This document shows positions 19,603-29,702 of a stretch of DNA of 33,140 bases, one piece after another. Within the stretch, counting starts at the first letter, position 1; each line of letters starts with the position of its first letter. The translations under genes and the position numbers were made by a program. Below the pieces are notes generated by a model, which saw nothing but the letters and a program-made list of their open reading frames with translations, was not told where the DNA came from and ran no database searches. Origin of the DNA: a virus; IMG/VR virus record IMGVR_UViG_3300021093_000228, positions 1 to 33,140 of that record. One strand, written 5' to 3'.

Positions 19603-19625
19603 GGGGGTCCTTGTGACCCCCTTTT
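19603..19625 (+). terminator. Rho-independent terminator upstream of the AAA gene
   Basis: GGGGGTC (19603-19609) and GACCCCC (19615-19621) form a perfect 7-bp stem with a five-base loop, followed by TTTT. It separates the small gene from the AAA ATPase gene. Confidence 0.87.
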
Positions 19626-24969: not shown

Positions 24970-25309
24970 GAACCATTTGATTGACGAAGACCCTTCACTT
25001 GAGAAGGAATATCCTCCCTACATTGTAAATCGTTGTTTCTCTGGGCATTTAGATTCAGTACTATTTGCGAATGAAATGAACCAGTATCATTTCCTCGCCA
25101 AGAAACTACAATATGACTTTATGCTAAATAGTCTGAGGAAAAAGAAGAGATTTTCTCCCTGGCTCCGCAAAGATACAATCAAAGATCTTGATTATGTTAA
25201 GCGTTACTATGGTTATAGTAATGAGAAGGCAAAACAAGCTTTGAGGATTCTTACAGAAGAACAACTTACTTTTATTAAATCGAAATTTGAAACTGGAGGA
25301 AAAAAATGA
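24929..25309 (+). CDS. 62: Clamp loader small subunit gp62
   Basis: gp62 is the non-ATPase subunit that joins four gp44 subunits into the clamp loader. The product, from ATG 24929 (MELKDWLNSINQTKNHLIDE), is 126 residues, shorter than T4 gp62 (187). The segments YPPYIVNRCFSGHLDSVLFANEMNQYHFL and KRFSPWLRKDTIKDLDYVKRYYGYSNEKAKQAL are characteristic of gp62 in cyanomyoviruses. It overlaps the methyltransferase by 41 bases, and its stop overlaps regA as ATGA with a strong GGAGG ribosome site for regA inside it. In T4 gene 62 directly follows gene 44; here several genes intervene. Confidence 0.93.
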   Translation: MELKDWLNSINQTKNHLIDEDPSLEKEYPPYIVNRCFSGHLDSVLFANEMNQYHFLAKKLQYDFMLNSLRKKKRFSPWLRKDTIKDLDYVKRYYGYSNEKAKQALRILTEEQLTFIKSKFETGGKK

Positions 25310-25746
25310 GTGTCGTTCAAGAACCTGAAGTGAAGTGGACGCCCGATCAAATGGTGGAAGTGGTTCTTAATGAACCTGATGACTTTTTGAAAGTGCGTGA
25401 AACTTTGACTCGTATTGGAGTCGCATCACGAAAGGAAAAGAAAATCTATCAGTCTTGTCATATTCTTCACAAGCAAGGTAGATATTATCTCGTTCACTTT
25501 AAGGAACTGTTTGCTTTGGATGGCAAACACGCTAACCTGACCGTGAATGATGTTCAGCGTCGAAATCGTATCGCTCAACTTCTTGCTGATTGGGGTCTGA
25601 TTATAATCGTTGATGTTGCCAAGATTCAAGATATCGCTCCCTTGAATCAAATCAAAGTTCTTGCCTATAAGGACAAGGGAGATTGGATTTTAGAGACCAA
25701 ATATAATATTGGATCTAAAAAGAAAAAGGTAGAGGATGCCGAATGA
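25306..25746 (+). CDS. regA: Translational repressor RegA
   Basis: RegA binds mRNA near the start codons of early genes and lowers translation, including its own and that of clamp and clamp loader genes in T4. The protein has 146 residues (T4 122). Typical blocks are FLKVRETLTRIGVASRKEKKIYQSCHILHKQGRYYLVHFKELF at 28-70 and RRNRIAQLLADWGLIIIVD near 84-102. The order 62-regA-(43) is that of T4, although several genes separate regA from 43 here. A GGAGG ribosome site lies nine bases upstream. The gene is followed by a promoter that partly overlaps a weak hairpin. Confidence 0.95.
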   Translation: MSVVQEPEVKWTPDQMVEVVLNEPDDFLKVRETLTRIGVASRKEKKIYQSCHILHKQGRYYLVHFKELFALDGKHANLTVNDVQRRNRIAQLLADWGLIIIVDVAKIQDIAPLNQIKVLAYKDKGDWILETKYNIGSKKKKVEDAE

Positions 25747-25762
25747 TAAAGTGGGATAGGAG

Positions 25763-25791
25763 TTGACATCTCCCTTTTTTCTGTCTATAAT
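25763..25791 (+). promoter_or_regulatory. Consensus sigma70 promoter after regA
   Basis: TTGACA (25763-25768), a 17-base spacer and TATAAT (25786-25791): a perfect match to both hexamers and to the spacing. The spacer contains CTCCC and six T residues, the end of a weak hairpin (GGAG / CTCC at 25759-25773) that could end regA transcription. The start should lie near 25798, about 21 bases before the next gene. Confidence 0.92.
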
Positions 25792-25998: not shown

Positions 25999-26021
25999 TA
26001 TGATAACCGAATAAAAGAGTA

Positions 26022-26044
26022 GGGGATTCCACATCCCCTTTTTT
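26022..26044 (+). terminator. Rho-independent terminator before the hsp20 gene
   Basis: GGGGAT (26022-26027) and ATCCCC (26033-26038) form a perfect 6-bp stem with a five-base loop, followed by six T residues. Confidence 0.88.
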
Positions 26045-26061: not shown

Positions 26062-26121
26062 TAGTAGTGGATGCCGTAAGGGTCCACACATTCAAACCTC
26101 GCTTAAAAAGGAGCTACAATA

Positions 26122-26556
26122 ATGACGAACCTCACAAGGTATACTGCTGCGGATCTTCCTGCCCTGATGGAAAAGATTACTCGCAATAGTATTAACATGG
26201 ACGAATATTTTGATCGTCTGTTTCATCTTCACGAAACTACATCAAATTACCCTCCTTATAATCTAGTTCAGGTAAATAACGTGGAATCTAAATTAGAACT
26301 AGCACTTGCTGGATTTAAGAAAAAGGAGGTTTATGTCTACACGCAAGATGGTAAACTTTTTATTGAAGGTCAAAAAGAAGATAAGGAAACGGAAACCAAT
26401 TATCTCCACAAGGGTCTGGCTCAACGGTCATTTACACGAGCATGGACACTCTCTGACGATACGGAAGTTCGATCAGTTGATTTTGAGGATGGGCTTTTGA
26501 CAGTTACTTTGGGTAGAATTGTCCCAGAGCATCACAAGCGTAAGGACTATCTCTAA
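26122..26556 (+). CDS. hsp20: Small heat-shock protein (Hsp20/alpha-crystallin)
   Basis: An ATP-independent chaperone that holds unfolding proteins. The 144 residues comprise an N-terminal arm (about 1-50) with the FDRLFHLHETTSNYPPYN segment, then an alpha-crystallin domain with VNNVESKLELALAGFKKKEVYVYTQDGKLFIEGQK, then RSFTRAWTLSDDTEVRSVDFEDGLLTVTLGR and a short C-terminal tail. Hsp20 is a common gene in T4-like cyanophages, and it probably protects phage proteins or the replisome under infection stress. A clear AAGGAG ribosome site is at 26108-26113. It is in its own unit, bounded by terminators. Confidence 0.95.
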   Translation: MTNLTRYTAADLPALMEKITRNSINMDEYFDRLFHLHETTSNYPPYNLVQVNNVESKLELALAGFKKKEVYVYTQDGKLFIEGQKEDKETETNYLHKGLAQRSFTRAWTLSDDTEVRSVDFEDGLLTVTLGRIVPEHHKRKDYL

Positions 26557-26579
26557 ATAGAATTGAATATCGTCGGCGC

Positions 26580-26621
26580 GAGGAGCACCTGGCAAAATCC
26601 AGGTTGACTCCTCCTTTTTTT
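26580..26621 (+). terminator. Strong terminator after hsp20
   Basis: The two-part stem consists of GAGGAG / CTCCTC (26580-26585 and 26608-26613) and CCTGG / CCAGG (26588-26592 and 26599-26603) with a six-base loop, followed by C and seven T residues. Its 3' arm contains the -35 hexamer of the following promoter. Confidence 0.9.
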
Positions 26622-26632
26622 CTTGCTATAAT
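26604..26632 (+). promoter_or_regulatory. Sigma70 promoter for the Sm-like/polymerase genes
   Basis: TTGACT (26604-26609), a 17-base spacer and an extended -10, TGCTATAAT (TATAAT at 26627-26632). The -35 is inside the terminator stem. Start expected near 26639, and a GGAGG ribosome site follows at 26637-26641, 13 bases before the next ATG. Confidence 0.88.
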
Positions 26633-26654
26633 GAATGGAGGAATAAACTACTAA

Positions 26655-26984
26655 ATGGCAATCAAACTAGCACTACTAAAATCTGGTGAGCAAGTAATTA
26701 CCGACGCAAAAGAACTTCTTATTGATGATAAAGTTTGTGGATATTACTTTATCAAACCACATAAGGTTCGTCTCAATCGCCCTATCGTTCTCACCGAAGA
26801 TGATGAGGTAAATCCTGACTCTGTTGAAGTAACTCTTTCTCCTTGGATTCTCATTTCCAAGGATGAAGAAATGGGTGTTACTGCTGACTGGGTTGTAACT
26901 ATGGTTGAACCAATTGATGATGTGAGAGAAATGTATTTGGAGAAAACTAATGGAGAGACTGGTAAAGATTCTAGCACTAACTAA
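26655..26984 (+). CDS. Sm-like protein, paralogue C
   Basis: A 109-residue protein. Blocks are IKLALLKSGEQVITDAKEL at 3-21, YFIKPHKVRL at 31-40, TLSPWILIS at 60-68 and DWVVTMVEPIDDVREMY at 78-94. These are in the same order as in the other three Sm-like proteins of this window, although KP replaces NP. As the first gene of the polymerase operon with a strong early promoter, it should be made early. The C-terminus overlaps paralogue D by 35 bases, so the two adjacent members may be translated together. The call rests on pattern, not on a search. Confidence 0.75.
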   Translation: MAIKLALLKSGEQVITDAKELLIDDKVCGYYFIKPHKVRLNRPIVLTEDDEVNPDSVEVTLSPWILISKDEEMGVTADWVVTMVEPIDDVREMYLEKTNGETGKDSSTN

Positions 26985-27207
26985 CAATACAATTTTAATC
27001 AGTGAGATTGTAGAGGTTGGTGCCGATGTTGGGGAACCTGATTGTAAACTCACTAATCCCTTTGTAATTAGAAGTGACAAAACAATGGAATCATTCCTTT
27101 GTGATTATACCGCACAGGATACTTTTATGATAAGTTCAGACAAGATTCTGACTCTTGCAGATCCAACAGATGAACTTCTGTCCAAATATTATGATTTAAT
27201 TGCCTGA
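26950..27207 (+). CDS. Sm-like protein, paralogue D
   Basis: An 85-residue protein with VKILALTNNTILISEIVEV at 5-23, KLTNPFVIRS at 33-42 and KILTLADPTDELLSKYYDLI at 65-84. The glycine-containing SGE of the other members is replaced by TNNT, but the NP block and the C-terminal strand-helix (DKILTLADPTDELLSKYY) closely follow paralogue A. The ATG used overlaps paralogue C by 35 bases, and the stop overlaps the polymerase start as TGATG. The adjacent pair C and D may be a duplication within this operon. Confidence 0.72.
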   Translation: MERLVKILALTNNTILISEIVEVGADVGEPDCKLTNPFVIRSDKTMESFLCDYTAQDTFMISSDKILTLADPTDELLSKYYDLIA

Positions 27208-29702
27208 TGAGATTTTACACAAACGTCCAGATGGTCGGGGATCACTTCCTCGTTCGTGGTTATGATAATGGAGAACACTTCATGACCCGAGAGAAGTTTT
27301 CCCCGACTCTTTTTGTTCCTTCGAAAAGAGAAACTAAGTATCAAACTTTGAATGGAGAATATGTAGAACCTATTGAACCTGGATCAGTTCGTGAGTGTAG
27401 AGATTTCATCAAAAAGTATGATGGCGTAGAGGGATTTAAAATCTACGGGAACGATAGATATGTCTATCAATATCTCTCTGCTAAGTATCCAGAAGAGCAG
27501 ATCAAGTTTGATATTGACAAAGTCAAACTAGCAACCCTTGATATTGAGGTTGCGTCTGAGAATGGTTTCCCAGATGTAGAGTCTGCCGCTGAGGAAATTC
27601 TTCTCATCACACTTCAGGATTATTCTTCTAAGGAGATTATTACTTGGGGTAAAGGTCCTTTCAAACTAAAGCAGGGTAATCACTACTACAAGCAGTTCAA
27701 TAATGAATATGATCTTCTCAATGATTTTATTCATTGGTGGATGGATAATACACCAGAAGTAATTACTGGGTGGAACAGCAAGTTGTACGATATTCCATAC
27801 ATCGTTCGTCGCCTTGATCGTATTCTTGGTGAGAAACTGATGAAGCGCATTTCTCCTTGGGGATTGGTTACTGAACTGGAAACTTATATTGCTGGTCGTA
27901 AGAATATCTCTTATGATATTGGTGGAATCTCTCAGTTAGATTATCTGGATTTGTATAAGAAGTTTACTTACACCAACCAGGAATCATATCGATTAGATCA
28001 CATTGCCAGTGTTGAACTTGGTGCTAAGAAGTTAGATCACAGTGAGTTTGATACTTTCAAGGATTTCTACACAAAGGGTTGGCAGAAGTTTGTAGAATAT
28101 AACATCGTTGACGTGGAACTTGTTGACCGTATGGAAGACAAGATGAAACTCATCGAACTCGCTCTCACTATGGCATATGACGCCAAAGTAAACTATGAGG
28201 ACGTGTTTTATCAGGTTCGTATGTGGGATACGATCATCTACAATTATCTTAAGAAAAGAGATATTGTAATTCCACCTAAAGAAAAAACCGATAAAGATTC
28301 CAAGTATGCTGGTGCTTATGTAAAGGAACCGATCCCTGGAAAGTATGATTGGGTAGTGTCGTTTGACCTTAACTCTCTGTACCCTCACCTGATTATGCAA
28401 TACAATATTTCACCAGAGACTCTTCTGGATGAGAGGCATCCATCAGCAACAGTAGATAAAATCTTAAATCAATCCATTACATTTGAAATGTATAAGGATT
28501 ATGCTGTTTGTGCCAATGGTGCTATGTTTCGCAAGGATGTGCGTGGATTTTTGCCAGAACTGATGGAAAAGATCTATAAGGATCGAACTGTTTTTAAGAA
28601 AAAAATGCTTGCTGCCAAACAGGAGTATGAAAAAACACCAACAAAAGAACTTGAAAAAGAGATCGCACGGTGTAATAACATCCAAATGGCACGGAAGATT
28701 CAATTGAACTCTGCTTATGGTGCCATTGGTAACCAGTATTTTAGATATTACAAACTTGCAAACGCAGAAGCAATCACACTCTCTGGGCAAGTCTCTATCC
28801 GCTGGATTGAGGACAAGATGAACCAATATCTAAATAATCTGTTAAAAACTGAGGAAGTCGATTATGTTATCGCATCTGACACTGACTCGATCTATCTTAA
28901 CATGGGACCTATTGTTACTAAATTTTTTAGTAATAAGTCTGGTGATAAAATAGCAATTGTTTCCATACTTGATAAGATTTGTCAAGAAAAACTGGAACCA
29001 TTCATCGAACAGTCTTATCAGGAACTTGCGGATTACGTTTCGGCGTATGAACAAAAAATGCAAATGAAGCGTGAGAACATTGCTGAACGTGGTATTTGGA
29101 CTGCAAAGAAGCGTTATATTCTTAACGTATGGAACAGTGAAGGTGTTCAATACAATGAACCCAAACTGAAGATGATGGGTATTGAGGCAGTGAAGTCTTC
29201 TACACCTGCTCCTTGCCGACAGATGATTAAAGACGGTCTCAAACTTATGATGAGCGGAACTGAAGAGGATGTTATTAACTTCATTGATAGGTGCCGAAGT
29301 GAATTTAAGAAGATGCCACCAGAGCAGATTGCCTTTCCAAGAACTGCTTCTGACGTTGTAAAGTATCGTTCCTCATCCGACATTTATGTGAAGGGAACAC
29401 CCATTCATATTCGTGGAGCACTTTTATTCAATCACTATGTGAGGGAGAATAAACTTACAAATAAATATTCACTCATTGCTAATGGAGAAAAAATTAAATT
29501 TCTCTACTTGAAAAAACCAAATATTATTCAGGAAAATGTGATCTCATTTATCCAAGATTTTCCTAGAGAACTAAACCTTGACAAGTATGTGGACTATGAT
29601 CTACAATTTGAAAAGAGTTTTGTAGAACCACTCAAATCTATTCTTGACGCCATTGGATGGAGTGTCGAAAAAACTGTTAACCTTGAATTATTTTTTGCCT
29701 AA
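27207..29702 (+). CDS. 43: DNA polymerase gp43 (family B)
   Basis: This is the replicative polymerase with proofreading exonuclease. The protein has 831 residues (T4 898). The N-terminal exonuclease has Exo I LDIEV at 111-115 with the catalytic Asp112 and Glu114, then the ITGWNSKLYDIPYIVRR Exo II block, and the YNIVDVELVDRM Exo III block. Polymerase motif A is DLNSLYPHLIM near 386-396, motif B is KIQLNSAYGAIGNQYFR near 500 and motif C is SDTDSIY, with Asp558 and Asp560. The C-terminus, ending KTVNLELFFA, probably carries the clamp-binding peptide (LELFF). The gene is intact, without the split or intron found in some relatives. Confidence 0.98.
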   Translation: MRFYTNVQMVGDHFLVRGYDNGEHFMTREKFSPTLFVPSKRETKYQTLNGEYVEPIEPGSVRECRDFIKKYDGVEGFKIYGNDRYVYQYLSAKYPEEQIKFDIDKVKLATLDIEVASENGFPDVESAAEEILLITLQDYSSKEIITWGKGPFKLKQGNHYYKQFNNEYDLLNDFIHWWMDNTPEVITGWNSKLYDIPYIVRRLDRILGEKLMKRISPWGLVTELETYIAGRKNISYDIGGISQLDYLDLYKKFTYTNQESYRLDHIASVELGAKKLDHSEFDTFKDFYTKGWQKFVEYNIVDVELVDRMEDKMKLIELALTMAYDAKVNYEDVFYQVRMWDTIIYNYLKKRDIVIPPKEKTDKDSKYAGAYVKEPIPGKYDWVVSFDLNSLYPHLIMQYNISPETLLDERHPSATVDKILNQSITFEMYKDYAVCANGAMFRKDVRGFLPELMEKIYKDRTVFKKKMLAAKQEYEKTPTKELEKEIARCNNIQMARKIQLNSAYGAIGNQYFRYYKLANAEAITLSGQVSIRWIEDKMNQYLNNLLKTEEVDYVIASDTDSIYLNMGPIVTKFFSNKSGDKIAIVSILDKICQEKLEPFIEQSYQELADYVSAYEQKMQMKRENIAERGIWTAKKRYILNVWNSEGVQYNEPKLKMMGIEAVKSSTPAPCRQMIKDGLKLMMSGTEEDVINFIDRCRSEFKKMPPEQIAFPRTASDVVKYRSSSDIYVKGTPIHIRGALLFNHYVRENKLTNKYSLIANGEKIKFLYLKKPNIIQENVISFIQDFPRELNLDKYVDYDLQFEKSFVEPLKSILDAIGWSVEKTVNLELFFA

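Follow-up and report, generated by a model that had tools for sequence, protein, structure and literature searches.

Downstream of hsp20 in a T4-like cyanophage, a transcription terminator and the early promoter of the DNA polymerase (g43) operon occupy the same bases. Does this locus serve only to pack two transcription signals into little space, or is the overlap part of something larger? The window, by which we mean the whole stretch of DNA analysed (33,140 nucleotides, a 33-kb virus record), is related to phages S-SRM01, Bellamy and S-SKS1. The features discussed are listed in Table 1.

Table 1. Positions, in the window, of the genes and of the observed and predicted transcription signals.
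Feature	Position	Strand	Remarks
regA	25306-25746		followed by a small gene, then hsp20
Sigma70 consensus promoter after regA	25763..25791	+	weak stem around the −35 box
Terminator hairpin and T-run, then −10-like box	26021..26039	+	upstream of hsp20; stem without −35 box
Terminator hairpin with T-run, then −10-like box	19603..19621	+	stem without −35 box
hsp20	26122..26556	+	phrog_432; gene upstream of the element
T4-type late promoter box (predicted) TCTAAATA	26552..26559	+	overlaps hsp20 stop codon; TAAATA at 26554-26559
Predicted late small RNA, ~55 nt	26565..26621	+	conservation from predicted +1; covariance model match 26565-26619
5′ segment GAATATCGTCGGCGC	26565..26579	+	predicted unpaired; antisense to host 5S rRNA
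Intrinsic terminator hairpin	26580..26613	+	conserved inner CTGGCAAAATCCAG; outer stem covaries among relatives
−35 box TTGACT, early promoter	26604..26609	+	within 3′ side of hairpin
Terminator T-run	26615..26621	+	inside early-promoter spacer
−10 box TATAAT, early promoter of g43 operon	26627..26632	+	extended −10
g43 operon	26655..29702	+	phrog_431 gene, phrog_483 gene, DNA polymerase gp43 (27207-29702)

The hairpin downstream of hsp20 has an MFE of −19.4 kcal/mol (z −3.33), and none of 200 shuffled sequences was equally stable. As in an intrinsic terminator, it is GC-rich and the T-run follows immediately. The promoter boxes resemble TTGACA and TATAAT, match the sigma70 consensus at 11 of 12 positions and are separated by 17 bases, within the 16-18 required of a sigma70 early promoter; a TG lies one base before the −10 box, and the −35 sequence spans a small bulge on the stem's 3′ side. 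A preliminary description of this DNA had proposed such an overlap between a strong terminator and the promoter of the polymerase operon, with the −35 box in the stem, the T-run in the 17-base spacer and an extended −10, and both the exact coordinates and the stability of the hairpin bear this out. It had also placed terminators directly before a −10 box at two further sites, and at both of these good hairpins, T-runs and a −10-like box were found. The same arrangement, with a weaker stem, had been claimed for the region after regA (25753-25791). There the promoter is a perfect match (12/12), but the terminator is unsupported in the window, the stem (MFE −6.9, z 0.17) being no better than shuffled sequences. 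A better-looking fused version after regA is present in P-SSM2 (L120), as read by eye.

The preliminary description took these overlaps for a repeated, compact design and proposed a search for TTGAC-bearing terminator stems in other cyanophages. Among 204 strong intergenic terminators from the window and nine cyanophage genomes, ten sequences in all, eight carried TTGAC 16-18 bases before a −10 box, whereas the other 59 permutations of these letters gave a mean of 0.32 (19 in total, highest 3), so that the frequency is not random. TTGAC still ranked first under a laxer definition of terminators, with 15 cases against at most 7 for any other permutation. Three of the eight belong to the element described below (S-SM2, S-CAM22 and the window) and five are other sites. 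Fused sites other than the element are located, for example, in S-PM2 (124323), in S-SM2 (167164) and, downstream of hsp20, in S-RSM4. The S-RSM4 site (L086:1992-2050), like those downstream of hsp20 in L054 and L055, is a plain fused terminator-promoter without the RNA core introduced below; a fusion of this kind can thus remain at the locus when the small RNA lies elsewhere or was not seen. Compact fusion of terminator and promoter in cyanophages is real and recurrent, beyond chance, and mutual regulation of the two is possible.

The overlap is also frequent in the element itself. A fused promoter was detected in 100 of 119 distinct elements, with a spacer of 17 in 95, and in none of the other 19, compared with 32 of 595 shuffled tails; these 119 are of the fixed-distance form (207 instances), come partly from scans that selected non-consensus cores and include a few contigs counted under two locus identifiers. 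Among 13 named Synechococcus phages the fused promoter was found by script in eight and by eye in S-N03, which the script had missed because of an interrupted T-run. S-PM2, Syn9, S-RSM4 and S-MbCM7, however, have kept the late box, the 5′ core and the terminator and have no fused sigma70 promoter; in S-PM2 a convergent gene follows the element. Thus, the repeated design is confirmed as recurrent, but since four phages keep the element without the promoter, there is no support for the view that the element exists for the sake of the overlap.

Judged by comparison of related phages, the hairpin forms just the 3′ part of a larger conserved unit. This unit consists of TAAATA, five variable bases, GAATATCGTCGNCGC, an optional linker, the hairpin (outer stem variable, inner part CTGGCAAAATCCAG) and the T-run. 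Among its best-conserved parts is the 5′ core that precedes the hairpin. In most of 80 related viral contigs the block lies downstream of hsp20, either directly or after one more gene. Our alignment A1 comprises 73 sequences, namely 68 of these 80 hsp20-anchored contigs, the window and four isolates; the contigs left out were identical copies, were cut at the contig end or lacked a full match, and of eight sequences initially without a match one (L078) was recovered. The element is located upstream of the g43 operon or far off near psbA/hli genes (S-RIM8, Syn19, S-RIM2, S-PM2, Syn9), and it moves as an intact unit. This changing neighbourhood, together with the retention of the element without the promoter, suggests a function in trans.

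The box at the 5′ end is predicted to be a T4-type late promoter. In PMC2988020, T4 late boxes are described as 8 bp long, starting at −13 and ending at about −6. Because T4 late boxes end there, the G at which conservation resumes (26565 in the window) is the predicted +1. The late motif of cyanophages given in PMC2984593 is NATAAATA; box and spacing in the window are those of a T4-type late promoter, with CTAAATA rather than the full ATAAATA. TAAATA is present at 13 other places on the + strand of the window, and several of these coincide with gene junctions. Of the 65 distinct modules to which 71 loci were reduced, 62 have TAAATA, 50 of them at the modal distance from the core, and three lack it. 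It occurs shortly before the core in 12 of the 13 named phages, ACG-2014f having none within 25 bases of the core; in S-N03 and others its distance from the core differs. The whole unit looks like the gene of a late small RNA of about 55 nt in T4-like Synechococcus phages, as predicted from these conserved signals.

Several observations concern the surroundings of the element. The contig sequence L002:6433-6540 is identical to window positions 26554-26655 through the element and TATAATGA, after which the two part and the following gene is present in another version, as if the point of divergence were a recombination joint. Four loci (L026, L040, L042 and L076) contain another block between hsp20 and the element, in which inverted repeats TTTGACCGCA ... 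TGCGGTCAAA flank a small hairpin; this block is possibly a mobile insert. The wcaG and PhotoRC-II RNAs share loci L082, L083, L115 and L116 with the element. The hsp20 leader of the window (26065-26127) gave a weak match to the ROSE_3 thermometer (E 0.22), whose 19.7 bits fall short of the cut-off of 43 bits.

Conservation of the hairpin is seen at the RNA level. It folds at −16.8 to −24.4 kcal/mol in all 73 sequences, 67 of which contain TTGAC. RNAalifold returned only four pairs for the first alignment, in which two stem classes were misaligned, and covariation was counted in 32 sequences of one class. In these, 99.8% of the cells were paired. Changes on both sides were seen in 6 of the 13 pairs, which include 5 of the 7 outer-stem pairs, and involved 42 cells; none of 500 shuffles scored as high, and sliding the partners by one to three columns left at most one pair with two-sided changes. 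A covariance model matched 13 of 14 records at E ≤ 0.001, once in each except S-SM2, which has two matches (the second at E 2e-4); the match in S-RSM4 was weaker (E 1.3e-6). Seven further Synechococcus phages gave matches at E ≤ 2.7e-4, those of S-PM2, Syn9, S-SKS1 and S-SRM01 at 3e-12 or better and those of ACG-2014f, S-MbCM7 and S-N03 at 3e-6 to 3e-4; a second match in ACG-2014f (L121; 5e-4) is a sequence without the 5′ core. In total the element was matched in 13 of 13 named Synechococcus phages tested, a non-random sample in which S-RIM8, Syn19, S-SM2 and S-RIM2 had been chosen from BLAST matches of the element.

The model did not match P-HM2, P-SSM4, P-TIM68 or T4, and the only match in P-SSM2 was of the promoter type (E 0.19) and not convincing, although small Prochlorococcus-sized genomes in the host sample carry complementary 5S. 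No Rfam family matched the element at the gathering score, neither for the window stretch nor for seven other loci. A search for a host homologue of the RNA in six cyanobacterial genomes, in which 150 of 782-1186 candidates per genome were scored, yielded no convincing one; the best reached E 0.0017 and 25.7 bits, compared with 46-81 bits for the phage elements. In the folds of the window and S-SM2 RNAs the 5′ 15 nt are unpaired and the hairpin begins at the next base; in three of the five folds (L020, S-PM2 and Syn9) the 5′ end is partly paired. A promoter of its own, a terminator and a free seed give the element, as read from its sequence, the layout of a trans-acting small RNA.

The 5′ core is complementary to host 5S rRNA. 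Its complement, GCGNCGACGATATT, is present in 37 of 101 Synechococcus-family genomes, and the reversed control in three. Of the 54 places with this complement, 49 are in 5S genes located by Rfam and one more, at a contig start (L316), reads as 5S; of the others, L311 is not 5S and three have no assignment. The match in L301 covers 5S nt 65-78, and the overall pairing about nt 65-79. On the Rfam structure, nt 65-78 of L301 take in loop A together with the end of helix II and the 5′ strand of helix V/loop E; in mature 5S the target is helical. For five elements the best duplex energies were −29.6 to −39.4, against shuffled means of −21.7 to −24.8, in an uneven comparison of the best over 60 hosts with the best over 10 for each of 20 shuffles. 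The margin over the best shuffle was small for L077 (−32.5 vs −31.1), and for L405, a rare allele expected to fit few hosts, the median host (−19.7) was no better than shuffles. In L020 (4125-4153) the optional linker TATGCCACG can lengthen the predicted 5S duplex via bulges (best −39.4 kcal/mol). The S-N03 RNA (L119) has a longer 5′ part in which two more antisense-5S-like stretches, CCGCTGC and GCAGTGTTT, were seen by eye; these perhaps extend the pairing with 5S.

We compared variation in the phage core with that in 5S copies of the hosts, 80 in number and taken from 75 genomes. Of the 101 genomes, 28 that gave no 5S match were left out, as was G082, which gave a poor one. Core positions 0, 1, 2 and 5 are invariant in the 80 host copies and in 74 phage elements, a set in which one row (L019, whose true core is consensus) was mis-anchored in the promoter, so that one count is off at several positions. 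Between −1 and 8, host 5S varies at −1, 3, 4, 6, 7 and 8 and the phage core at −1, 3, 4, 6 and 8, and the phage minor alleles at −1, 3, 6 and 8 equal host alleles or wobble with them. The commonest phage base at position 8, G (47/74), does not pair with the prevailing host 5S type: the host complement at this position is C in 71 of the 80 copies and G in the other 9. The phage T allele at this position is explained by wobble with G; a host A variant, GCGACGACG, was rejected as its partner, the sole match (L311) not being 5S. Positions 9, 10 and −2, which are invariant in hosts, vary in 6, 6 and 4 of the 74 phage elements, respectively (one row being mis-anchored at 9 and 10). The edges of the pairing are frayed.

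Open scans of viral contigs allowed any non-consensus base at a chosen core position, with positions 9-11 fixed. Matches without hairpin and T-run were rejected (12 of 13 at position 0, 5 of 59 at position 3, 1 of 16 at position 4 and 1 of 62 at position 6). Counted as distinct elements, which within one scan are related and hence non-independent, the scans gave C in 13 and T in 1 at position −1, T in 32 and A in 1 at position 3, T in 4, A in 1 and C in none at position 4, and T in 26 at position 6. The host complements are A/C at −1, C/T at 3, G/T/A at 4 and C/T at 6; alleles seen in hosts are present in 13/14 (C at −1), 32/33 (T at 3), 5/5 (T or A at 4) and 26/26 (T at 6) distinct elements. 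At the host-invariant positions 5 and 0, both with host complement T, the scans gave three elements with C, which breaks the pairing, and one doubtful element, respectively.

With wobble allowed, 21 of the 26 distinct cores that deviate from the consensus form a mismatch-free duplex with some sampled host 5S haplotype, and the other five have a mismatch to each host type sampled. The four nulls, of which two were biased towards transitions, gave means of 3.2-7.5 and a maximum of 14, and 0 of 2000 trials in each reached 21. Some of the matches involve two sites; for example, phage GACTATCATCGCCGC matches the rare host type AACTATCATCGCCGC (1 copy), and phage GACTATCGTTGCCGC matches another rare host type (2 copies). 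T at positions 3 and 6 would likewise form a wobble pair with the predominant host type, and it arises by a frequent type of mutation. The matching of cores to host haplotypes holds at the level of populations. The element combines complementarity with covariation, as a base-pairing small RNA does. These comparisons show that phage core variants track host 5S variants; the predicted gene and its pairing are well supported at the level of sequence.

Our preferred reading, to which we assign a probability of roughly 0.7, is that the element encodes a late-promoter-driven phage small RNA whose 5′ end is antisense to host 5S rRNA and which would hinder 5S/50S late. The late RNA polymerase with gp55, gp33 and gp45 would make an RNA of ~55-65 nt that stops at the hairpin. 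The 5′ end of this RNA would pair in trans with 5S rRNA that is nascent or free, at the end of helix II, loop A and the helix V/loop E side. The pairing may compete with 5S folding and ribosomal-protein binding and so limit 50S assembly or 5S stability, at a time when the phage would no longer need new ribosomes. In addition, the late polymerase, by ending transcription within the early promoter, may contribute to silencing of the g43 operon late in infection; since the RNA is retained in some phages that lack the promoter, such silencing would be an optional add-on. The fullest version, in which an antisense RNA directed against rRNA, with a seed tracking the host 5S type, disables 5S/50S biogenesis and its late synthesis also shuts the replication operon, is put forward tentatively, as possible rather than probable.

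Two other pairings were considered. A search for exact 9-nt core complements in eight element-bearing phage sequences (seven isolates and the window) and two without the element gave scattered matches, a few of them common to two related phages and none seen in most, and a phage target was dropped. By eye, the hairpin sequence CUGGCA also seemed able to pair with the 5S 3′ end, but S-RSM4, S-MbCM7, S-N03 and ACG-2014f have different loops that do not allow it, and this pairing was dropped as well.

Other explanations share part of this evidence. The RNA might use 5S as a decoy or guide to reach ribosomes and tune late translation, with no block of 5S maturation. A 5′ end that pairs with 5S and a structured 3′ part with a conserved inner stem-loop would suit such a role, but in mature 5S the stretch that would be paired is helical, and in the 50S subunit it is covered by protein; we regard this role as unlikely. 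It is quite unlikely that a late small RNA has another RNA or a protein as its partner and that the 5S match is coincidental: the 14-nt complement is nearly confined to 5S in 101 genomes, the mirrored alleles include two-site haplotypes (such as GACTATCATCGCCGC with host AACTATCATCGCCGC), and no repeated phage target emerged from the eight phage sequences, even though the conserved inner stem-loop of the hairpin could be a protein site and G at position 8 mismatches most host 5S.

The view of the preliminary description, that the locus is a compact, insulated junction in which a terminator shields an early promoter and no separate RNA gene exists, accounts for the fused promoter of 100 of the 119 distinct elements, for its 17-nt spacer in 95 and for the other fused sites in the same phages. 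Against it, S-PM2, Syn9, S-RSM4 and S-MbCM7 retain late box, core and hairpin with no fused promoter, and the 5′ core, which precedes the hairpin and is one of the best-conserved parts, matches 5S; a junction of this kind and nothing more is very improbable. We consider it extremely improbable that the element acts as DNA to which host 5S rRNA hybridises in an R-loop, for instance at a replication start. T4 origins use R-loops, the same complementarity would hold, and in many phages the element adjoins the DNA polymerase operon. These points are outweighed by the mostly fixed distance of the late box, by a terminator with RNA-level covariation and by positions near psbA; moreover, the 3′ end of 5S lies outside the paired stretch, and priming would need cleavage.

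If the preferred reading, a late small RNA antisense to host 5S, is correct, a virus acts on host ribosomal RNA through base pairing and an RNA step is added to late control in abundant aquatic phages. The seed would also record host 5S types, giving a sequence-only hint of the host for uncultured cyanophages. We know of no phage or bacterial small RNA that targets rRNA by base pairing. Trans-acting small RNAs of phages are short and have a 3′ intrinsic terminator, a free 5′ seed and a promoter of their own. Among the open-licence PMC papers listed by literature searches, judged by titles and the starts of abstracts, none reported the RNA described here or a phage RNA antisense to rRNA.

Compared with trans-acting phage-encoded small RNAs, a class that has been reviewed (PMC12197685), the architecture is the same, but the predicted partner is an rRNA instead of an mRNA and variation of the seed parallels that of host 5S. 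CfrI of S-PM2, as portrayed in PMC2984593 and PMC5931967, is likewise a non-coding RNA of a T4-like Synechococcus phage; it differs in being ~225 nt long and antisense to the phage's own psbA and homing endonuclease gene. The predicted late promoter shares with T4 and cyanophage late promoters (PMC2988020 and PMC2984593) TAAATA about one helical turn before the start and AT-rich sequence after it, but the box of the element drives no protein gene directly and a terminator follows ~50 nt on. PhotoRC-II and wcaG (RF01717 and RF01761; PMC2864571) are likewise conserved cyanophage RNA structures near psbA/hli genes, but they are classed as cis-regulatory and occupy other positions of the same loci. 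The arrangement of promoter, seed and terminator is thus that of an ordinary small RNA, and it is the predicted target, host 5S rRNA, that sets the element apart.
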